A stretch of DNA of 47,419 nucleotides from IMG/VR virus record IMGVR_UViG_3300005530_000035, positions 1-47,419 of that record; one strand, 5' to 3'. Of the stretch, positions 12,309 through 47,419 are shown in pieces. Source of the stretch: a virus. The position numbers and the translations under genes are program-made. The notes beneath the pieces are model-generated. The model did not search any database. It saw only the letters and a program-made list of their open reading frames with translations, and had not been told where the DNA came from. Within the stretch, counting starts at the first letter, position 1, and each line of letters opens with the position of its first letter.

Positions 12309-15300
12309 ATGAACGATCCACGACTTGATTATATTAGTAAAGTTTATAGCGCATTACAAGATAATGTTAGTGGTTTTAATAAAACTCCCGGCGATTTTTT
12401 AGATTCAATGAACGACCCCAACTACAGAAATAAGGTTTATTCAGCTTTAAAAGATAACGTTCAAGGTTTTAATAAATCACAGCAAGACTTTGAGAGTATA
12501 ACTGCTCAAAAAAAAAATTCTTTACCGACTTCAACTCCTTCAAAGTATGTGGCCGCACCGGAAGATACAGAAGATTCACAACCTTCTTCGGCCGTTGCTA
12601 CGCCTTCGCAAAGTCAATCAGGTTCCGTAGCCCAATCATCATCACAAGGAACGCAGCCAGTACAACCACAGCAGCAACCGACTAAACCACCGCCTTTTGA
12701 CCCGAATACGTTCATGCGTCAATCAAGGGCGAACGTAATACAACAACCTGTACAAGATAATACTTTAGCAGTACAGCCTCAACAAACTAAGGCTGCTATT
12801 GACAGCCAATTAGAGAAACCGGAATATCAGAAACGAAAAGCCGAAATTAATAAAGAAGCGGTAATCAATTCTACAGCTCAATATCTCAAAAATAAAGGAA
12901 TAAACGCTCCAGTAGGTTCTGCTCAATTTAATCAGCAACTTGCCAAAACACAAGAATTAGTTAATAGTGGGCAAGCTACCGTTGCTATCAATCCTGACGG
13001 ACAAATAGGGCTAAAAAGAGTAACAGGATTCTTAGAGAACATTAAGAATGGATGGGACGAGGCAACTAAGAGTGCAGATGAAGCTAATGACTTCACTAAT
13101 AATATGACTACTCAACAAAGAGTAGATTATGTTAAATCGCACGATATACCACAACCTGACCAATTTATAGGAGAACAACCTTCTACTTTGGGTTCTTTAG
13201 GGCATTTCATGGGTGGCGCTGCTCCGTTCTTAGGCAAAGCCGCCGTAGGTGCAGGTATAGGCGCTCTTGCAATAGCTGGTGCTCCTGAAAGTATGGGTGC
13301 TTCACTTACAGGATTACCAACGGCCATGTCTTTCATCCTTACTGCACCCGATATGGCGAATCAGGGAGCGCAACAAGAAATAATAAGGAGATACCAGATA
13401 CTCAAAAATCAGAATCCAGATATGTCCGATGTGGACGCAATGGAGGAGGCGGGTAAAGGTGCTCTTGTAGGAGGTATAGGTGGAATTTTAACCAATGCTG
13501 CCTTAATGGGTACTGGACTTAAAACACCCCTTTCTCTCGAAGCAAAAGGAGTTGTAGGGAAGACTTTGCAGGAAGTAGGAAAATCAGCAGTTCACATGGG
13601 AGGCGTATCAGCGGGAGTAACAGCGGCGCAACAACTCGAAGGTGAAGCAGAGGGTATTCATACTTCAACATCCGATAAATTAAAAGCAATAGAGGACAGT
13701 TTTAAAGAAAATGCTACCACAGGGGCTATGCTTACAGCTTTGATGCACGGAGTACCCAAGATAATGGAATCTGCCATTAAATACTCCTTAAAAGACACAC
13801 CTCCTGACCAGATAAGAAACGTACTTCAAGCTAATGAAAACGCCGGAACTGTACCAGAAGGTACTACCGAAAAGGTAATGAAGGACATAAGTTCTTATAA
13901 TGACGCTCTTAATAAAACAGTTGATGGACTTTCCCCCGAAGCCACCGCATCCGTCGCAGGATTAATACAGAAGAAAAACAGCCTTATCGAAGAATCCAAA
14001 ACAAAAGACGATTCGTTCAAACCTATCTATAAGGAAAAGATTGACGCCATAGACCAACAAATACAAGACATTCAAAGAACAGGCAAACCATTTGAACATG
14101 AGATAGACGAAGTAACAGGCAAACCTTATCAACAACCTACTTATGACGATGTAGCCCAACAACAAGTACAGGATTTAGCAAATAATATCGCTAAAGGAAA
14201 GAGAGTAGAAAAACCAGAAGATTTACAAACAGAAGCTAACTTCCCGAAAGAACTTGAAGATGAACTTCAAAACAGATTAAAAGAAGATCAGCAAGCAGGT
14301 AAAGAAAATTCAGGCGTACAACAAAATATTAATTCTTTCTTAAAGGATAAACAGCCGACCATTCAGAGTGCCGTAATAACTATCAACGGTAAAACTTATG
14401 AAGGCGAAAACCATGCAGAGGCTATATTAAAAGCCAAACAAGACGGGCAGGATATTTCACAAGTGGATAGACAAGGTCAAGGTCAATTTAAGTTATCTGA
14501 CGGCACAATAATCAGCAGAGATGAAGCTAAACAACGTTTCGGACAAGATAGGGCTGAACTACTAATACCACAAGATGAAGCAGCAAAACAAGCAGATAAG
14601 CAATACAGGGAAATAACTACTCCGAGCAACGAAGAACCTGCTCCCGTAAGAGCAGCAGATAAACCGGTTGAACCCGTAAGTTCTCCGGTTATTTCTGATA
14701 AAGAAGAAGAGGCTTTGTATGGAAAGAAAGGTGAGCCAAGAGTAAAATTAGATTTCTCCTCAAAAGGTAAAAATATAGTAGAACCTCCTAAGCCTATTTC
14801 AGAAATGAATAGTGATGAATTGTACGATTATTCCCAACAGGTTAAAAAGGCTCTCGCAAAACAGGATAAAGAATTTGAAGGTAAAACAGATGACGAAAAA
14901 GAAGCCGCAGGTTATTATGATTATGTTGATAATGTAAGTGATTTAAGAGATACAGCGCAAAGGGTAAACTTTGTTGAAAATTCAGAAAACCTTGACGAAT
15001 TGGCTTCATCTACAAAATCAGCATTGCGTGATTTTAATAAAGATAATCCTTCTGACGAATCTTTAGCTATATTAAACGCCGCAAAAAATAAAGCGGAAGA
15101 AATGAATATTGCGCCTGAAGATTTGATAAAGGCTGTTATAAAAAAAGTTGGCAATGATTATAAAGATAAAGATGATGCTGAATTTATGATGCGCAGCTAT
15201 CTTGAAAAAATAACACCAAAAGAATCTTCTTCCAGTAAACCAACAAATACAGAAGAAAATAATTCTTCAAATAAACCGGAAGTAGTACCTTCAACCCCCG

Positions 15301-23126: not shown

Positions 23127-25435
23127 ATACGTTCCCCGCTGATGATATAGACCCGCAAAAAAAAGGACAAGACTACTGTAAAAAGTGGGCAGAAGCTATC
23201 TATGATAACTGGCTTCATGTAGTTCCTAAGACAATGTTTGCTCATGCTGCTGACAAGTATGAACGGATAAAATCGTATGCTCTCGGTTATCAGAATACTT
23301 CTAAATACCGTAAAGGAATGGGAGTAGATGAAGAAGATGATACTTCGTGGTTAAATATAGACTGGTCAATTCGTCCTATCGTTTCTAAGTTTAGAAGGAT
23401 AGCCATAGGGAAACTCCAAAAGGCCGACTATAATATTAATTTTCATCCTATTGACCCTTTGGCTCGTGATGAAGTCTCCAAGTATTATAGCGAGATTAAA
23501 GCAAAGATTATCCTTCGTGAAAAACTTCTTCAACAACAGCCGGAACTTGCTCAATTACCTGCTTTTAAGAAGAAATTCGGCGACCCCGAAGATTTGGAAG
23601 AATTGCAAATGCAGATAGATTACGGGAGCAAGACTAATCTATCTATTGAAGCAGAAGAAGGTGTAGGAGTGGTATTACAGGACACTGACAATAATATTTA
23701 CGAACACCGCAAACTGACTTTTGAGAACCTTTTCGACTATGATGTTAGTGGTCATAAGGTATGGATAGATGACAACGGAAGGGTACGTTTCAGGTGCGCA
23801 GATATGAGAAATATCCTGACTAACTATTGTAGAAAAAGGGATTTTTCAGACCTCGCTTATGTGGGCGAAATTATTGACGTTCCCTTAACGGAACTCTCTA
23901 AAGAGTTTAACGCAGAGGATATGGAGAAAATCAAAGGCATTGCCCAAACGCAACCACAACGTCCTATCGGTGGGAATACCTTTACAACTTATGCTCATGA
24001 TGAATCCAAAGTAAAGGTTCTCGATTGTGAATGGAAAACCTACAACACGATTGTAAAACGTCAATCCCAAAATGAAGAAGGGAATATCGTATTTAAGGAA
24101 TCCAAATTCAAAAATTTAAAATCAGATGAAAAAACCACTATCAACGGAGTACAGAAACCCAAATACATTGGTAAAACAGTAGAGGTAGTCTATAAGTGTA
24201 AATGGATTATTGGCTCTGACTTTGTTTATGATTTCGGACTTGCAAAAGACCAGCCACGTTCCGCTACCAAAGCTGCACGTACTGAATTAAGTTACTCCTT
24301 TTACGCACCGGACTTCCATGAAATGCGTACCCTATCTATTATGGAGCAACTTATCCCAATGGCAGACGAATACCAATTGCTCGTTTATAAAGTTCAGAAC
24401 CTCAATAACCGTATGATGCCCTTTGGATGGGCTATTGATTTGGATGCGATTGAAGATGTGGCACTCGGAGCAGGGGGAGCAAAATTAAAACCTTCCGAAG
24501 TACTGGATATGTTCTTCCAAAGTCAAATCTTAACTTATAGAAAAAAAGATTTAGACAGGCAGAATGTCAACTACAAACCAATCGAAGTTATACAGACTTC
24601 CTTTGCGCAGGAAATGGTAGCCTTATATAATCACATGGCTTCTATTATCGCCCAAATCAGGGATATAAGCGGATTAAATGAGTTGGTAGATGGCTCTACC
24701 GCAGGACAAGACAGGATGCCCAACGGATTAATAGAAGCTAATGCCGAAAGTGCCAACAATGCCCTCTTTGGAATCATTGATGCTGAAAAATGTTTGCTTG
24801 AAAAACTCGCAACCTCTTGTTTTAAGAGACTTCAAATAGCCATTAAATCGGGAGACTACGGAGGATATATTAACGCGATAGGTGGTAACTCGGTAAAACT
24901 AATTAAAGTCTCTCCTGACCTTGCCTTGCATGAATTTGCGATTATATGTGAAGTGAGACCTACGGACGAAATGAAGCAGTTAATCATTCAGGAAATGCAG
25001 CCGAATATAGCTGCCGGATTTTTAGACTTGTCAGACGTGTTGATTATACTGGATATGTACTCTACCCGAAAAGCGTATCAATTACTCGCTTACAAGGTGA
25101 AGAAAAATAAACAGCAGATGCAGGATAACGCTATGCAGCAACAGCAGCAAAACGGCCAAATACAGATGCAGTCAGCACAGGCAGCAGAGCAAATGAAACA
25201 GCAGACAGCAGCTATTAATCACGAGTTTGAAATGCAGTTGCAGAAATTAATCATCGAAGGAAATTTAGCCGTTCAGGAATTAAAGAATAAGACAACGGAG
25301 ACAGCAGCGGCACTCGGAGTTGCGGCAAAAGTGATTACAGATAATATGAGCGGAGATACCGCAGCACAACCATCACAGGGAATGCCGCAACAACAACAAG
25401 GAATGCCACAAGGACAGCCAGCAATGGCGCAATAA
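23123..25435 (+). CDS. Portal protein
   Basis: This 770-aa protein follows the terminase with a 4-nt overlap, the standard position for a portal. It has N-terminal helices, a WLNIDWSIRPIVSKFRRIAI segment at about residues 76-95, an alpha/beta core, then long helices with LEKLATSCFKRLQIAIKSGD and an ISGLNELVDGSTAGQ stretch. The last 100 residues (about 666-770) are Gln-rich coiled coil, like the barrel or tunnel end of large podovirus portals. It forms the dodecameric DNA gate and the nucleation point for head assembly. The C-terminal Gln runs may be variable between related phages. Confidence 0.85.
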   Translation: MNTFPADDIDPQKKGQDYCKKWAEAIYDNWLHVVPKTMFAHAADKYERIKSYALGYQNTSKYRKGMGVDEEDDTSWLNIDWSIRPIVSKFRRIAIGKLQKADYNINFHPIDPLARDEVSKYYSEIKAKIILREKLLQQQPELAQLPAFKKKFGDPEDLEELQMQIDYGSKTNLSIEAEEGVGVVLQDTDNNIYEHRKLTFENLFDYDVSGHKVWIDDNGRVRFRCADMRNILTNYCRKRDFSDLAYVGEIIDVPLTELSKEFNAEDMEKIKGIAQTQPQRPIGGNTFTTYAHDESKVKVLDCEWKTYNTIVKRQSQNEEGNIVFKESKFKNLKSDEKTTINGVQKPKYIGKTVEVVYKCKWIIGSDFVYDFGLAKDQPRSATKAARTELSYSFYAPDFHEMRTLSIMEQLIPMADEYQLLVYKVQNLNNRMMPFGWAIDLDAIEDVALGAGGAKLKPSEVLDMFFQSQILTYRKKDLDRQNVNYKPIEVIQTSFAQEMVALYNHMASIIAQIRDISGLNELVDGSTAGQDRMPNGLIEANAESANNALFGIIDAEKCLLEKLATSCFKRLQIAIKSGDYGGYINAIGGNSVKLIKVSPDLALHEFAIICEVRPTDEMKQLIIQEMQPNIAAGFLDLSDVLIILDMYSTRKAYQLLAYKVKKNKQQMQDNAMQQQQQNGQIQMQSAQAAEQMKQQTAAINHEFEMQLQKLIIEGNLAVQELKNKTTETAAALGVAAKVITDNMSGDTAAQPSQGMPQQQQGMPQGQPAMAQ

Positions 25436-25548
25436 TATGCCGTTATCAGATAGCCGTATTTCACATTAGGGGTGGTTACGGCCCACGGCTATATCCGCTG
25501 TTGCCTAAAATGCCCTACATTATGGCGCCAATAAATAGTTGGGCGCAA
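25436..25548 (-). repeat. attC-like element b (3' side of a cassette-like unit)
   Basis: On the minus strand the sequence after the stop of the 46-aa gene reads GCGCCCAAC (25546-25538), then an ATTGGCGCC arm, a spacer and a second arm pair (ATAGCCGT near 25489 and ACGGCTAT near 25452). GCCCAAC fits the RYYYAAC core of integron attC sites exactly and mirrors the GTTGGGC core on the other side of the gene. The outer R' core is not clear (GATAACGGC near 25440 is the best candidate), so the element is either degenerate or composite. Confidence 0.5.
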
Positions 25549-25689
25549 TTAAGTGTCCAACAGTTCCATTAGTGCTTCGTTGACAGATTCTCGGTATGCT
25601 TGCATTATCTCATTTCTACCCCAGCCAGTTTTTGCTTGTAGTTTCTCAGCAAATATTTCTTCAATTCGTTTTAAAATTTTTTTATTCAT
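25549..25689 (-). CDS. Cassette-borne small hypothetical protein, 46 aa
   Basis: I start at ATG 25689 (MNKKILKRIEEIFAEKLQAK); reading further upstream would translate the attC-like element. The protein is a basic then acidic helical peptide: a Lys-rich N-terminal helix, a TGWGRNEI turn, and a helix ending NEALMELLDT. No known family was recognised. The gene is immediately flanked by GTTGGGC (minus strand, 25712-25706) and GCCCAAC (25544-25538), only 16 nt before the ATG and 4 nt after the stop. That is the compact layout of an integron gene cassette. No promoter box is seen before it. Confidence 0.5.
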   Translation of the reverse strand: MNKKILKRIEEIFAEKLQAKTGWGRNEIMQAYRESVNEALMELLDT

Positions 25690-25703
25690 AACAAATTTAA
25701 ACT

Positions 25704-25839
25704 GCGCCCAACATTTCATTGGCTTAATCGGGGCTGAACGATATGTGCTCAACGGAAGTACTTCTATTTAGCATTAGTGCAAGGCTCGGCGGACGTACTT
25801 CGATTTCCCCGCCTGCGCCAATGAGTTGACTATTGGGCG
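25704..25839 (-). repeat. attC-like element a (136 bp imperfect palindrome)
   Basis: Read on the minus strand, it starts CGCCCAAT (25839-25832) and ends GTTGGGCGC (25712-25704), with the matched inner arms TCATTGGCG (25825-25817) against GCCAATGA (25723-25716) and GGGG (25810-25807) against CCCC (25733-25730). The left end matches the GTTRRRY core of integron attC sites exactly; the right end matches RYYYAAC except for the last base. A few unpaired bases interrupt one arm, as in real attC folds, and a loop of about 70 nt lies in the middle. Confidence 0.6.
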
Positions 25840-25843
25840 AAAG

Positions 25844-26092
25844 CTACCTACTTATTTCCGGCAGCATTCCTAAGTCAGCGTTTAATTGAGAAACAAATTC
25901 CCAATTCCCGGCCTCAATATCAGACAGGGCAACCCAATCAGTTTTACCATCGTCATATTTTACCTTGTAGGCTAAACGCCAATCATGTTCTTCATCAGGT
26001 TGTACGTTTTCCAATGCAACAACTTCACAGCGTTCGCCAGCACGAAAACAATATCTGTGAACACCAACTAAATAAACTTTTTCAACCTTCAT
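25844..26092 (-). CDS. Small hypothetical protein, 82 aa
   Basis: The 82-aa protein is beta-rich: MKVEKVYLVGVHRYCFRAGE, then CEVVALENVQPDEEHDWRLA, a KVKYDDGKTDWVALSDIEAG segment, and a short tail. Phage proteins with a similar layout (G-E-x-C-x-V, D-W-R-x-A-Y-x-V-x-Y-x-D-G, D-W-V-x-x-S-D-I) are small SH3-like domains of unknown role. Its ATG lies 18 nt after the leftward -7 box of promoter G. It ends 5 nt from attC-like element a, so the cassette-like unit was placed directly behind it. Confidence 0.65.
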   Translation of the reverse strand: MKVEKVYLVGVHRYCFRAGERCEVVALENVQPDEEHDWRLAYKVKYDDGKTDWVALSDIEAGNWEFVSQLNADLGMLPEISR

Positions 26093-26110
26093 AACTAAAC
26101 TTTTGAACCA

Positions 26111-26193
26111 ACAAGATACAAATTGTATCTATTCCCACCAAATTTTTCTCCCCTTTTTTTGAGATACATTTTGTATCGTTCATTATAATTTTG
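26111..26193. promoter_or_regulatory. Divergent promoter G (scaffold/capsid operon and 82-aa gene)
   Basis: Palindromes at 26115-26129 (GATACAAATTGTATC) and 26163-26177 (GATACATTTTGTATC), 33 nt apart. Rightward: TCTCCCC ending at 26153, 9 nt, palindrome, 8 nt, TAATTTTG at 26186-26193, then the longest gap of the set (31 nt) to ATG 26225. Leftward: TTTG, 20 nt, TATCTTGT at 26118-26111, ATG 26092. Confidence 0.85.
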
Positions 26194-26224
26194 TTTTTGA
26201 AGAATATCCAACTAAACAAAATAT

Positions 26225-27346
26225 ATGTTTTTAAGAAAATTTTACGAAGCTACAAGTGAAGGAGGCGGTATAGCCTACAATCCTTTTGAGGGAGCAAAAG
26301 CAGGTGATATTAAAATTATTGACCCCGATGCACCGGAAGAAGTAGAAGAAGTGGAAACACCGGAAGAAAAAGTTGTTGAGAAAGTAGAAGAAAAAACACC
26401 CGAAAAAGTTGAAGAAAAGGTAGAGGAAAAGACTAAGGAAAAAGAACCTGAAAAAGTTGAAGAAAAAGTAGAGGAGCAAGCGCCGGAGGTAGTAAAAGAA
26501 GCGCCTGTTTTCAACTTGGACGAAGAACTGAAAAAAATCGACAAGTGGGAAGCTCTTAAAAAGTTGGGTTTAGATGATTTTGAAATTGATCTTTTAAAAT
26601 ATAAGGCTGAAACAGGAGATGTAACTCCCTATCTGGAAGCAAAGACTGTTGATTACTCCAAATTCACTGACGAGCAGATTATGAGACATGATCTGCGCAA
26701 ACAGTACAAGGGTATGTCAGACAAAGCGTTTGAACTACTCTACGAAAAGAAAGTAAACGAACAGTTTAACCTTGATGCGGAAGTTCACGGAGAGGCCGCC
26801 GCAGAACTGGGCAGAGAGTTACTAAAGTTTGAAGCCGATAAAATTCGACAAAGAGAAATTGAGGCACAGAAGAAGTTCAAAGCACCCGAAAAACCTGTTG
26901 ATGATACCGCGCAACGTCAAAAGCAGGAACAGGAAAAGAAGTTCGAAGAATACAAGAGTTATGTTAATGACAATCCCGCAACTAAAACATTGCTTACAGA
27001 CAAGAGACTTGTTTACGGTAATGGAGAAACGGCCTTCAACTACGCAGTTGAACCGAAAAGTTTAGTAGAGACTGCCCTTAATCCACAACTTTTATTTAAC
27101 GACCTCGTGGACAAGAACGGAAACGCTGACCTCGCAAAAGTATACAAGGCTAAAGCCTATATAGCCAACATGGAGCAAATAGAAAAGATGCTCATAGAAC
27201 ATGGGAAAACTTTAGGCGCAAAAGAACAATTTGAGAAACTGGAAAATCCTTCCAAGAAAGAAGCTGCACCGGCTGTTACAACCGAAAATTTGACACCCGG
27301 ACAGGCTCTTGCGAAGTATGGAAAATTCAAGTCGCCAAATTATTAA
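26225..27346 (+). CDS. Scaffolding-type protein with acidic repeat, 373 aa
   Basis: The gene lies directly upstream of the capsid gene, where phage scaffolds are found. Residues about 37-90 are a Val-Glu-Glu-Lys repeat (variants of EKVEEK). A predicted helical core follows (FNLDEELKKIDKWEALKKLG, about 97-116), and the C-terminal 90 residues hold further coiled coil with a basic end that would contact capsid protein. The very high Glu/Lys content and lack of cysteine suit a scaffold that is later removed. Long frames on the other strand in the repeat are a by-product of the codon pattern and are not genes. Confidence 0.7.
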   Translation: MFLRKFYEATSEGGGIAYNPFEGAKAGDIKIIDPDAPEEVEEVETPEEKVVEKVEEKTPEKVEEKVEEKTKEKEPEKVEEKVEEQAPEVVKEAPVFNLDEELKKIDKWEALKKLGLDDFEIDLLKYKAETGDVTPYLEAKTVDYSKFTDEQIMRHDLRKQYKGMSDKAFELLYEKKVNEQFNLDAEVHGEAAAELGRELLKFEADKIRQREIEAQKKFKAPEKPVDDTAQRQKQEQEKKFEEYKSYVNDNPATKTLLTDKRLVYGNGETAFNYAVEPKSLVETALNPQLLFNDLVDKNGNADLAKVYKAKAYIANMEQIEKMLIEHGKTLGAKEQFEKLENPSKKEAAPAVTTENLTPGQALAKYGKFKSPNY

Positions 27347-27379: not shown

Positions 27380-28690
27380 ATGGGAGTTTCAAGAGGAACA
27401 ACTAACAAATCCTACGTGTCCGCCCAAGACTGGATAGACACAAGAGAAATTAACCCCGCACTTATTGATGCGGCAAACGATACCGGGTTTTTAAAAACCA
27501 TGCAAATATTCGGACGTACAAAGAAAACATCACAGCCTTCATACAGCCATCACGTAAATAGTGAAATGTACGCTACTATCACAGTAGGAACAACTTCTGG
27601 CTCTGGCAGCGCAACCGTAACCACTGCATTAACTGCCGGTAATGGATTTTTAAGGGTGTCTGATACTGTTACTTTTCCTGACGGGAAACAAGGTGTCGTG
27701 TATTCAAAAACAACTACAAGTGGCGTGGACACTCTGGTTATCAAATCTACAGACGGAAGCAACCTTACTCTTGTTTCAGGAAACTCTTTGAGTTTTTCCG
27801 GATATGGAGTTGGTGAAGAAAGTGACGCAGTAGAAAACAGACGTTATGACACCGCAAGGTACTATAACCTGATTCAGACTTTCCGCGAAATTGACGTTAT
27901 TACTGATATTCAGAAAGTATCAACAGTGGAGTTCAATTATAATGGACAGAATTTGTACGGTGTATATCAGCACGCAAGAAAATTGCAAGCATTGAGATCA
28001 GCTATTGATATTGCGATGATACAGGGCAGGCAGTCTGTAACACAGTACGGAGATGCTTCACCGGCTTTGACTGATGCAAACGGTAAACCATTGCAGTTTA
28101 CTATGGGTCTTGACCAATATGTAACCACTTATGGCGTGAATGATTCTCTCACCACTACTGGTACTTTAACTTTCGATGACCTGAAAGATTTTGCATCACA
28201 GTTAAACGCAGCTAAAGCGCCTATGGAGTTTATGGGTTACACTTCTGACAGTTCTAAAATCGTTTACGACACCTTCTTTAAGGGTATCGGTAGTTCTGGC
28301 ATTACTTCCGGACGTATGAAACTGGATGGTAAAGAAGTTGACTTAACAGTTGACAAATACACTTTCGGTACTCGTACTTACGAATTAGTACCCGTGAAGA
28401 TTTTCGACCATCCTAAGGTTATTTCAAGTTCTATCAAGAACTCAATTTACTGGATTCCTAAAGGAAAAGTAAACGTTGAAGGTGGTGGAATGGAGCCTCG
28501 TATTCAGATTCGCTACATGGATCATGGCATGGCTAATGGAAATGACAATATGATCGGTGAAGCACATTCTGGTATGCTTGCTCCTGTACCAAATGGTACT
28601 ATTGCAAACTGGTCAACTCATTGGCTTACACATCAAGGGCTTGAAGTATTAGCGGCTAACCAATGCGCTAAACAGGCAATTAATTTCTAA
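27380..28690 (+). CDS. Major capsid protein (HK97 fold type)
   Basis: This 436-aa protein follows the scaffold gene and has the features of an HK97-type capsid protein: an N-terminal arm (MGVSRGTTNKSYVSAQDWID), an inserted beta domain at about 57-135 rich in Gly/Thr/Val, a long spine helix with NLYGVYQHARKLQALRSAID, a P-domain/A-domain part containing DHPKVISSSIKNSIYW, and a C-terminal part with IANWSTHWLTHQGLEV. The insertion could carry extra-capsid contacts. The gene ends in a strong hairpin terminator, which fits a highly expressed protein. Confidence 0.8.
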   Translation: MGVSRGTTNKSYVSAQDWIDTREINPALIDAANDTGFLKTMQIFGRTKKTSQPSYSHHVNSEMYATITVGTTSGSGSATVTTALTAGNGFLRVSDTVTFPDGKQGVVYSKTTTSGVDTLVIKSTDGSNLTLVSGNSLSFSGYGVGEESDAVENRRYDTARYYNLIQTFREIDVITDIQKVSTVEFNYNGQNLYGVYQHARKLQALRSAIDIAMIQGRQSVTQYGDASPALTDANGKPLQFTMGLDQYVTTYGVNDSLTTTGTLTFDDLKDFASQLNAAKAPMEFMGYTSDSSKIVYDTFFKGIGSSGITSGRMKLDGKEVDLTVDKYTFGTRTYELVPVKIFDHPKVISSSIKNSIYWIPKGKVNVEGGGMEPRIQIRYMDHGMANGNDNMIGEAHSGMLAPVPNGTIANWSTHWLTHQGLEVLAANQCAKQAINF

Positions 28691-43138: not shown

Positions 43139-43306
43139 TCATTTTCCTATTATTTCAATATTGTATTTAGACTTCATCCACGCTTCTTTTACCTTATTCT
43201 TGCTGTACCTTCTCATTGTTTCCCAGTGGCCGCCAATGGTGAGATAAATTCCTAAATCAACAAGGAATAAAAGAATGTTAATAATGATTAATTTTAGTTT
43301 TCGCAT
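43139..43306 (-). CDS. Small membrane protein, 55 aa
   Basis: ATG 43306 overlaps the end of the nuclease-like gene by 13 nt. The protein begins MRKLKLIIINILLFLVDLGI, one membrane helix, followed by YLTIGGHWETMRRYSKNKVK, a basic amphipathic tail. The overlap and the membrane segment support a real gene. Function is unknown; it could anchor or regulate an envelope process. It is the last gene of the minus operon and converges with the plus-strand operon. Confidence 0.6.
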   Translation of the reverse strand: MRKLKLIIINILLFLVDLGIYLTIGGHWETMRRYSKNKVKEAWMKSKYNIEIIGK

Positions 43307-43716
43307 TTAATATTTTTTTCAACTTCTTGTAAAACTTGTTTATAATTAATGCAAGTGAACCGTAAAACTTTCCATCCTAAGCTAATTGCCAGGTTTATTT
43401 TATCCGTGTCCTTAGTAAAGCCTAAAAGGGTTGTATGGCCCGACTTCTCACTGTTCAATCCATCATATTCTATTGCTATTTTAAATTCAGGCAAAGCAAA
43501 ATCTGCCCTGTATCGCCTTCCTTTTGCGAATTTGAACTCTTTTTCAAGTCTTATTCCTTTTTCAATGCACCAATACTTTAATTGCCAATGAATCCAGGAA
43601 ACTTCTTTACAATCATTGCGTGCTTTTTTCACTTTCTTTTTTACCGGTTCAACGAAAAGGTGCTGATTCCGTGAAAAACAGGCTGATTTTTTAATATCGT
43701 CAATGGAGAAATTCAC
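43294..43716 (-). CDS. PD-(D/E)xK nuclease of Vsr/DUF559-like type, 140 aa
   Basis: The C-terminal half has the nuclease core: RRYRADFALPEFKIAIEYDG with Asp72 and Glu83 as candidate metal ligands, then SGHTTLLGFTKDTDKINLAI, and GWKVLRFTCINYKQVLQEVE. The order (basic loop, R-x-D-F, A-I-E-x-D-G, a helix with Lys/Asp/Asn, W-K-V-L-R-F) is that of Vsr and DUF559-like endonucleases. The first 60 residues are basic, perhaps a DNA-binding arm. It may nick or process phage DNA or degrade host DNA. Confidence 0.7.
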   Translation of the reverse strand: MNFSIDDIKKSACFSRNQHLFVEPVKKKVKKARNDCKEVSWIHWQLKYWCIEKGIRLEKEFKFAKGRRYRADFALPEFKIAIEYDGLNSEKSGHTTLLGFTKDTDKINLAISLGWKVLRFTCINYKQVLQEVEKNIKCEN

Positions 43717-45834: not shown

Positions 45835-45861
45835 TTTTAATTAGTTGTTTAGAAGTTAGAC

Positions 45862-45900
45862 GGCAGCAATACAAACGTTGTAGGCAACCTACGCAACGCT
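45862..45900 (-). repeat. attC-like half site after the YopX-type gene
   Basis: On the minus strand: a hairpin CGTTGCGTAGG / CCTACAACG, a core GCCTACAAC (45885-45877), an arm GTTTGTATTGC, and then no clear partner arm. The 18 bases AATACAAACGTTGTAGGC (45868-45885) are repeated in inverted orientation, 16 of 18 matching, at 46354-46371 on the other side of the YopX-type gene. It looks like one arm of an attC site whose second arm has been lost. Confidence 0.4.
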
Positions 45901-46464
45901 CTGTAATAGTTCAGGGTTTAAGAATCGGTTTCCAATTATCTTTTTTGATTTTACTGCTGAACCGCCAAACTGAACAGAATAACAAGCGTGGCTCTTATCG
46001 TCAATTCTTTTTAAGTGGAAGCTGCTATCACATCCATAATCGCATATTAGTCTGATGATTGGCTTCTGTTTATCTTCGCCGAACGGATTAAACCCATTTA
46101 AAGGGTGGTCTCTAATCATTTCTTCGTGATATTCAATTTCTACAATATCATCTTCATATAATTCAATGCCATTGTATTTTTGATTAGAGAATTGGCATTT
46201 TGCAACTATTGAATATCCTGTGAGCCTTTCACATTGTGTTTTACATTCGCCATTGAATATTTGCGAGTAATCAAACACGATTGAACACATTCTTCCTGTT
46301 TCTTCATGTTGGAAAATATATTTGAATTTAATTTCACGGCTCTGAAACAGGCTGCCTACAACATTCGTATTTGCGTTAGGCTGGCTGACCTGCTGATTTT
46401 GAGCAGTTGAATTGCTATCAGCTTCGGTTTCGGCTGAAAGTTCGTTGATGTTACTATTATTCAT
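45889..46464 (-). CDS. YopX-like protein, 191 aa, with extended N-terminus
   Basis: From about residue 44 the protein follows the YopX pattern: REIKFKYIFQHEETGRMCSI, a middle with Cys and Gly, QKYNGIELYEDDIVEIEYHE (the Y-x-G-I/K-x-x-Y-E-x-D-I-V motif), and a beta-rich end. YopX family members are phage/prophage proteins of unknown function. The first 43 residues are Asn/Ser/Gln-rich and are encoded in part by the core of an attC-like element (46354-46384 on plus), so the reading frame runs through a recombination-type sequence. No ATG, GTG or TTG lies between there and the domain start. Confidence 0.6.
   Translation of the reverse strand: MNNSNINELSAETEADSNSTAQNQQVSQPNANTNVVGSLFQSREIKFKYIFQHEETGRMCSIVFDYSQIFNGECKTQCERLTGYSIVAKCQFSNQKYNGIELYEDDIVEIEYHEEMIRDHPLNGFNPFGEDKQKPIIRLICDYGCDSSFHLKRIDDKSHACYSVQFGGSAVKSKKIIGNRFLNPELLQSVA
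46354..46384 (-). repeat. attC-like core within the start of the YopX-type gene
   Basis: On the plus strand, GCCTACAAC at 46354-46362, then ATTCGTATT and GCGTTAGGC (46373-46381). GTTGTAGGC (minus) is the R' type core that matches GCCTACAAC at the far end of the gene (45885-45877). The sequence is coding as well, so it is a remnant rather than an intact site. The two copies of the core and its adjoining arm are inverted relative to each other. Confidence 0.4.
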
Positions 46465-46488
46465 ATTTTGAAGTTTTGTTTTTTAATT

Positions 46489-46556
46489 TAGCTGACGTTC
46501 GGGCGAAAAGTTCTTTTATCCAGCCCAAACGCAAATACGTGGTCGTTAGCAGTAAC
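46489..46556 (-). repeat. Short attC-like element between the YopX-type and 103-aa genes
   Basis: Minus strand: TACTGCTAACG (46554-46544), arm CGTTTGGGC (46531-46523), loop of 18 nt, arm GCCCGAACG (46504-46496), then TCAGCTAAA. The inner arms pair with one mismatch over 9 bp. The core CTGCTAAC equals the core on the other side of the 103-aa gene (46917-46910, read as GTTAGCAG). At 68 bp it is in the size range of short attC sites. The left outer core (GTCAGCT) is imperfect. Confidence 0.5.
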
Positions 46557-46557
46557 C

Positions 46558-46869
46558 TTATGCGACAATGTACAAATCATCCATAGTTCGCAAACCTTCA
46601 GCACCATCGTATTCTTCAACTTGAAATGCCGTGCCAATAGGTAGCCAATGAATTCGCAAATCAGAAGCACCCCCACAATAAACATCTTCAATTCCTAAAT
46701 TTTCTTTTATCCAATCTTCATCAATTTGGTCAGCTTTTCCTTTCTCTACCATTTCGACAATTTTAGGGCTAAATAATAATTGCTCATTGCTATTCCAAGA
46801 ATACCAACCTGCACCAAACCCGTGTGAGATAAGCACGGCAACTTTTCCATCTCTAATTACTTTTTCCAT
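46558..46869 (-). CDS. Cassette-borne hypothetical protein, 103 aa
   Basis: The protein starts MEKVIRDGKVAVLISHGFGA and runs through GWYSWNSNEQLLFSPKIVEM, VEKGKADQIDEDWIKENLGI, and a C-terminal WLPIGTAFQVEEYDGAEGLR. Gly-Trp, Trp-Asn and Glu-Tyr-Asp-Gly-Ala-Glu motifs are typical of a small protein family of unknown function seen in mobile elements. It lies between matching CTGCTAAC/GTTAGCAG cores and has no promoter box. A competing 67-codon frame (46488-46691) in the same strand overlaps it and the attC-like element and is rejected. Confidence 0.65.
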   Translation of the reverse strand: MEKVIRDGKVAVLISHGFGAGWYSWNSNEQLLFSPKIVEMVEKGKADQIDEDWIKENLGIEDVYCGGASDLRIHWLPIGTAFQVEEYDGAEGLRTMDDLYIVA

Positions 46870-46904
46870 TTTTATATTTGTTTTTTTTACGCTGACCGAA
46901 AAAA

Positions 46905-47046
46905 GGCTACTGCTAACATTGCATTGCCAAAATTGGGGCAGACGTGGTTAATTTAAACTTTTGTACTACTATTAAACTTCATTGCTAAATTGAACATTTG
47001 GTTTTCAAAATCCCCAACTTCGGCAATGCTTCAACGTTATAGGGGC
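46905..47046 (-). repeat. attC-like element, 142 bp imperfect palindrome
   Basis: Minus strand: GCCCCTATAACG (47046-47035), arm GCATTGCCG (47029-47021), CCCC/GGGG inner arms (47012-47015 with 46935-46938), a loop of about 70 nt, arm GGCAATGC (46928-46921), then AATGTTAGCAG (46920-46910). The long arms match on both sides with a few extra bases on one side, as in attC hairpins with extrahelical bases. The start core CTATAAC is identical to that of the next element to the right. Confidence 0.65.
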
Positions 47047-47048
47047 AT

Positions 47049-47270
47049 TTAAAGAGCCTGCGTAACCATATCGGATTTATTTTTAACTATTTCATACTTC
47101 CCGTTAAAGGGGTAGAAATTTTCACCTTTATCACCATAACCTATAGCCTTCATTATCCCATCAGTTCCCATAATAAAATCTGCGGCATCACCACCAACCC
47201 ATAGTTGAGACTGAAATCTTTTAGTTCCATCTTTTAAAGTTCCGATATGTAGTAATTTAATTTTGTTCAT
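47049..47270 (-). CDS. Cassette-borne hypothetical protein, 73 aa
   Basis: I start at ATG 47270 (MNKIKLLHIGTLKDGTKRFQ); a frame from 47303 would begin within the attC-like element. It continues SQLWVGGDAADFIMGTDGIM and ends KYEIVKNKSDMVTQAL. It looks like a small beta-rich domain with no recognised family. It is bounded by the core TATAAC on both sides: GTTATAGGGC 17 nt before the start and CCCCTATAAC immediately after the stop. That compact layout is typical of an integron gene cassette. Confidence 0.6.
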   Translation of the reverse strand: MNKIKLLHIGTLKDGTKRFQSQLWVGGDAADFIMGTDGIMKAIGYGDKGENFYPFNGKYEIVKNKSDMVTQAL

Positions 47271-47286
47271 CGTGTTGTAAATAAAC

Positions 47287-47419
47287 GCCCTATAACATTG
47301 CATTGCAGCAAGTGGGGCAGACGGAAGTTAATAATCTGTTGTTCGTTGTTCAGCTTTAGTTCTTGTGCTGGGCAGACGGAGCGCTGAATATCCCACCTGC
47401 TGCAATGCTTCAACGTTAT
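47287..47419 (-). repeat. attC-like element at the window edge, 133 bp or more
   Basis: Minus strand: ATAACG (47419-47414), TTGAAG, arm CATTGCAGCA (47407-47398), a loop of about 90 nt, arm TGCTGCAATG (47310-47301), then CAATGTTATAGGGC (47300-47287). The two arms pair without mismatch over 10 bp. An 18-base sequence at its right end (47402-47419) also occurs at 47023-47040. It is cut by the window end; the core's outer bases are lost. Confidence 0.6.

Follow-up and report, generated by a model that had tools for sequence, protein, structure and literature searches.

The virus record IMGVR_UViG_3300005530_000035, whose 47,419 bp were analysed in full and are called the window here, encodes a terminase and a portal that group with those of Flavobacteriia phages (Cellulophaga, Flavobacterium), and it is a virus of Bacteroidota bacteria. 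A minus-strand gene at 1302-1838 has a GroES-like match (PHROG 3188, E=2e-19) and its plus-strand neighbour at 1961-2530 has a Cpn10 match; these are possibly two co-chaperonin genes in one phage. Near the right end of the window there is a DUF559 / homing-endonuclease-like gene (43294-43716; PHROG 503, E=1e-20). Beyond it lies a row of small minus-strand genes separated by attC-like sites, which the initial annotation had described as an integron-cassette-like array, and a second such row (array B) interrupts the structural operon. On their sequences, the right array comprises at least the cassettes C1, C2 and C3 (45.9-47.4 kb) and the second place at least the cassette CB (25.4-26.2 kb). All of the cassettes start at a G|TT crossover and are set apart from one another by attC sites.

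Sites and cassettes at the two loci

The features, with the right array first, are as follows (R2 is the covariance model described below).

47286..47419, minus strand: attC0; core AAC..GTT at 47417-47294; R'' box lost at the contig end; stem score 16
46917..47295, minus strand: cassette C1, from the TT after the G|TT crossover to the next G
47049..47270, minus strand: C1 gene, 73 aa, no family; in frame with it, a longer ORF of 84 aa begins within the right arm of attC0
46907..47048, minus strand: attC1; core 47038-46915
46362..46916, minus strand: cassette C2, with R'/R'' pairing
46558..46869, minus strand: C2 gene, 103 aa, of a phage family of unknown function, with relatives in viral contigs
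46352..46555, minus strand: attC2; core 46547-46360; the loop holds the ATG (46464) of the YopX-like ORF
45877..46361, minus strand: cassette C3, with a YopX-like gene that has no start codon at its expected beginning; ends at R'' 45889-45877
45889..46464, minus strand: YopX-like ORF, 191 aa, the first ~35 residues encoded by attC2
45850..45889, minus strand: attC3 half-site, R'' and first stem arm; second arm not found; only 7.3 bits with R2
25436..26224: inserted segment; the portal gene ends at 25435 and the next structural gene starts at 26225
25844..26092, minus strand: upstream gene of array B (82 aa, unknown), running antisense to the structural operon
25702..25842, minus strand: attC-B; core 25834-25710; R'' is AAT rather than AAC
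25538..25711, minus strand: cassette CB, with a 46-aa ORF (25689-25549); R'' 25548-25538; no full attC after it

A scan for the pattern AAC, spacer, stem, loop, stem, spacer, GTT returned three strong sites in the right array (47417-47294, 47038-46915 and 46547-46360), all on one strand and within 1.1 kb, where a cluster calls for at least two attC sites. In all three the longer spacer (5-6 nt) is at the AAC side and AAT precedes GTT. The matching core pairs that had been proposed were recovered at 47296-47286/47046-47036, 46917-46905/46557-46545 and 46362-46350/45889-45877, with the AAC/GTT triplets kept at the cores and all genes of the array on the minus strand. Two of the palindromes drawn in the initial annotation (46905-47046 and 47287-47419) were also recovered, whereas the third, 46489-46556, is one arm only of the site 46547-46360, whose arms pair across a ~140-nt loop, and the YopX-like ORF overlaps that loop with its first 35 codons. 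Similarly, each of the first two genes does have a palindrome at its 3' end, as proposed, but the YopX cassette ends in a half attC. In line with the description of the genes as promoterless, sigma-70-like matches are at chance level (6 compared to 5.7 in shuffled sequence), in a scan for that promoter type, which does not extend to Bacteroidota promoters.

Both arrays end in a half attC made up of R'' and the first arm (45850-45889 and 25520-25548), and in the right array the start codon of the next phage gene lies within ~20 nt of it. A deletion following insertion, or a fusion to the adjoining phage gene, could possibly account for such ends. With no second arm in the array-final attC and AAT in place of AAC in attC-B, some of the sites may be dead.

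The initial annotation was concerned with the right end only and missed the second insertion at 25436-26224, in which two small genes antisense to the operon accompany a single full attC site. The 82-aa upstream gene probably belongs with the CB insertion. The junction of the portal gene and the next gene measures 37-121 bp in 10 of 11 relatives (~40% protein identity), and the eleventh, L064, has an unrelated insert of 637 bp there (14362-14998) in which the R2 model found no attC. The L064 insert encodes a small protein rich in Cys (GGSCCANCRFWDGEDC), which is similar to a cassette protein of L179. These relatives are distant and therefore show an insertion in the present lineage, not its date; the nearest contig, L052 (portal 86% identical), stops short of array B. 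Just upstream of the 82-aa antisense gene, at 26110-26180, is a hairpin with two self-palindromic GATACAAATTGTATC-like arms and AAC/GTT flanks, which may mark the 5' limit of array B or be a regulatory site of the phage.

Relatives of the 103-aa gene of C2 were found in 42 viral contigs and 14 phage records, and in two Vibrio phages it is part of an ordinary row of genes. The pattern scan showed no attC array around the gene at the 42 loci. A perfect hairpin lies upstream of it in L039. The initial annotation had held that the same genes joined in the same order without repeats in related phages would speak against an array. The 103-aa gene indeed lacks the repeats elsewhere, but its gene contexts differ, and therefore a common phage gene became a cassette and the repeats are not thereby unrelated. 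The label of the YopX-like gene proved weak, its Pfam YopX score of 18.0 bits being below the gathering cut-off of 22.4 (PHROG 98, E=4.2e-6). Searches with the 73-aa gene, the structural protein at 27380-28690 and the 268-aa gene beside the array yielded no relatives. No family was found for the remaining cassette genes.

Site model, folding and core complementarity

With a DNA pattern derived from one site, sites of the same geometry as those of the window were found in Pedobacter sp. BS3, in a Chitinophagaceae MAG and in four IMG/VR contigs, one of them being the Pedobacter provirus. The covariance model R2 was built from 19 sites of those Bacteroidota sequences, with the window sites left out. 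An earlier model, R1, had a span too short for long-loop sites and was replaced by R2, and three MAFFT alignments for the model were dropped as their stems were misaligned. R2 scored attC0 at 29.9 bits (E=1.8e-6), attC1 at 39.8 bits (E=2.2e-9) and attC2 at 34.1 bits (E=1e-7). The low covariance scores named in the initial annotation as grounds for rejection were thus not the outcome for any of the three. An unanticipated result was that R2 also matched attC-B (25.3 bits, E=4.1e-5), while the next match in the window scored 11.4 bits. The sites have the fold expected of attC, namely an R'' AAC, unequal spacers, an imperfect stem, a variable loop and an R' GTT, with AAT in attC-B.

R2 is specific: across 562 kb of phage loci only Polaribacter phage P12002L was matched, at two sites beside methylase genes, and there was no match in the 29 other phage loci or along the full length of 20 phage contigs that are related or share genes. 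The proteobacterial attC of Shewanella phage M16-3 was scarcely detected, and R2 is therefore a model of the Bacteroidota type. An Rfam scan of the region returned nothing relevant. In 200 dinucleotide shuffles of the 47 kb, stems scoring at least 14 with AAC/GTT flanks occurred 0.005 times per window, compared with the three observed. Folding as single-stranded DNA, as the initial annotation had suggested, gave z-scores for the better strand of -3.1 (attC0) and -3.6 (attC1; 0 of 200 shuffles), and attC2 reached -4.5 relative to shuffles on the plus strand, the only one folded for that site. The window sites also align end to end with sites of Bacteroidota arrays: attC1 is up to 71% identical to sites in Bacteroidia genomes, attC-B is 65% identical over its full length to a Bacteroidia site, and attC2 belongs to a 204-nt class shared with 20 of 63 Chitinophagaceae sites.

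In a circular integron cassette the first and last core belong together. Pairing of the first core with the cassette's own last core was found in all four bounded cassettes, at 9, 11, 11 and 11 of 12 positions, whereas non-matching core pairs agree at 4-7 of 12. In C1, R' GTTATAGGG pairs with its own R'' CCCTATAAC, and in C2 (over its first 12 positions), C3 and CB the R' and R'' pair at 11 of 12 positions each. The same relationship was evident in 32 Chitinophagaceae cassettes found with R2, whose own cores pair at a mean of 7.4 of 9 positions versus 3.7. This is the strongest single argument that these are true cassettes, because their own cores complement each other as excision circles require.

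The predicted attC2 leader and the distribution of the site type

The YopX-like ORF starts at 46464 in the attC2 loop and continues through the right arm of the attC and the recombination point into C3. The first in-frame ATG that C3 itself offers is no earlier than residue 57-59, while the family match already starts at residue 43. Other arrays show the same arrangement, among them a DNA methylase in the viral contig L047, the family match of which starts directly after the recombination point. In the window, attC2 appears to provide the beginning of the protein encoded by the following gene, a predicted leader of ~35 residues. With a leader taken to require an ATG 25 nt or more upstream and 40 codons downstream, leaders were present in 10 of 16 long sites at phage-like loci versus 2.3 with the loop shuffled (0 of 500 shuffles reach 10) and in 13 of 96 others (Fisher p=8e-5), a test that is partly circular because the phage-like loci are where the pattern was first seen. 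Among those loci, matches to Gam, an anti-repressor and a deoxyribosyltransferase support a prophage identity for L134, and L132 overlaps an IMG/VR provirus. Leaders occurred in 6 of 35 other Bacteroidia sites (null 1.8) and in 7 of 61 Chitinophagaceae chromosomal sites (null ~5), the latter not above chance. A leader as a general trait of all Bacteroidota attC was rejected, as the chromosomal sets are near chance. The leader in the window resembles one from a Chitinophagaceae site that shares its length class, a similarity reached by 0 of 2000 shuffles.

Sites of this type are common in Bacteroidota, R2 having matched 46 of 198 Bacteroidia genomes and 66 of 197 Chitinophagaceae genomes. In the Chitinophagaceae loci L186-L215, attC classes of ~140 and 204 nt (with flanks) lie side by side in the same arrays, and the 64-nt difference between them looks like an extra block in the loop.

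Alternative readings and known systems

Our analyses indicate that this phage is very probably a carrier of integron cassettes at two places without an integrase, that is, of CALINs, because attC sites and own-core complementarity are present and the contig has no tyrosine recombinase. The cassette cluster without an integrase put forward initially is supported by the covariance scores, by the complementarity of each cassette's own cores and by the end-to-end alignment with Bacteroidota sites. No PF00589 match was found in the contig, as the initial annotation had anticipated, in a search that was positive in 14 of 14 control genomes. The intI gene of a complete integron is absent from the contig, and since the record ends inside attC0 an integrase could lie beyond its end. 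It is highly improbable that the palindromes are terminators or other hairpins standing by chance between small phage genes, even though small minus-strand genes with palindromes are frequent in phages and a different self-palindromic hairpin is present at 26110-26180: the sites have no T-run terminator, their AAC/GTT and stem geometry is ~600-fold above chance, the covariance-model matches speak against terminators, and the core complementarity spans genes, not palindromes. Bacterial DNA joined to the phage contig by misassembly might be suspected because the right array sits at the end, where the contig breaks off at an attC repeat, and because this attC type is chromosomal in Bacteroidia. 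We nevertheless regard it as improbable, as the second insertion is inside the structural operon, far from the contig ends, the cassette genes are from phage families and the arrays have GC contents of 0.374 and 0.399, compared with 0.381 for the window.

A broader alternative concerns the recombinase, which might be another Bacteroidota tyrosine recombinase (XerA-like, without the IntI-specific insertion) acting in a related but separate system. We consider this a conceivable though rather unlikely explanation. An IntI match (E<=1e-40) was found in none of the 46 attC-positive Bacteroidia genomes, a result that is only suggestive of a mover other than canonical IntI because those genomes may be incomplete; the positive control, a Shewanella phage, matched in one piece with 394 bits (E=6.5e-120). 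Some attC-carrying genomes have XerA-like recombinases that align to the IntI model minus positions 179-238, and L047, a 7.6-kb viral contig, encodes at 960-1796 a 278-aa XerA/integron-integrase-like tyrosine recombinase with the same positions missing, beside leader-type cassettes with two DNA methylase genes. However, similar XerA-like recombinases are widespread, their linkage to these arrays is putative, and IntI1 recombined a site of Polaribacter phage P12002L (PMC9892861).

Under the reading of phage-borne cassettes without an integrase, whose mobilisation and leader translation are predictions, the attC bottom strand would fold into a hairpin whenever replication or entry leaves the phage DNA single-stranded, and a tyrosine recombinase that the host provides in trans would cut and join at G|TT. 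Cassettes could by such recombination enter, leave or shuffle, and would be read from phage transcription, with attC2 giving an ATG and a leader of ~35 residues, from which translation would run across the recombination point and on into the YopX-like gene. More speculatively, and in our estimation doubtful, Bacteroidota phages and hosts may share a cassette system in which the phage attC would encode the next gene's start and leader, start-less genes would be expressible as fusions anywhere and the mover would not be canonical IntI. Among open-licence papers we found no description of an attC-encoded leader or of a Bacteroidota attC type without canonical IntI, and the leader and the widespread Bacteroidota attC without detectable canonical IntI may be the new parts of this system.

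Phage-borne CALINs (attC clusters without an integrase) are a kind known from a few phages, reported in 2023 by Qi et al. (PMC9892861); what is new is the phage lineage and the presence of two separate cassette insertions in one genome, one of them interrupting the structural operon. The packaging of common phage genes as integron cassettes supports traffic between phages and bacterial cassette pools. In addition, the site model reveals a widespread attC type in a phylum for which IntegronFinder 2.0 reported very few integrons (PMC9024848). It is now testable which recombinase moves these cassettes and whether an attC can encode the beginning of a protein.

The closest likeness is to P12002L, a published CALIN (PMC9892861), which is also a Bacteroidota phage with small cassettes and with attC sites but no integrase; R2 detects the sites of both phages. 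From their position by methylase genes, its two R2 matches appear to be the two published sites. It differs in belonging to another phage lineage and in the shortness of its matches (72-73 nt versus 140-204 nt in the present phage, which has two separate insertions), and an attC-encoded leader is not mentioned in the consulted passages of its description (PMC9892861). The chromosomal arrays of Chitinophagaceae and Pedobacter sp. BS3 share the attC type, the ~140/204 nt classes and the own-core complementarity, although, unlike in the present phage, the attC leader is mostly absent from chromosomal Bacteroidota arrays. In class 1 integrons, ORF-11 in attI1 serves the first cassette by translational coupling (PMC8876359), and there, as is predicted here, a recombination site supplies translation initiation to a cassette without its own. 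In contrast to ORF-11, the start in the present phage lies within an attC, acts for the cassette that follows and is predicted to yield a fusion protein.
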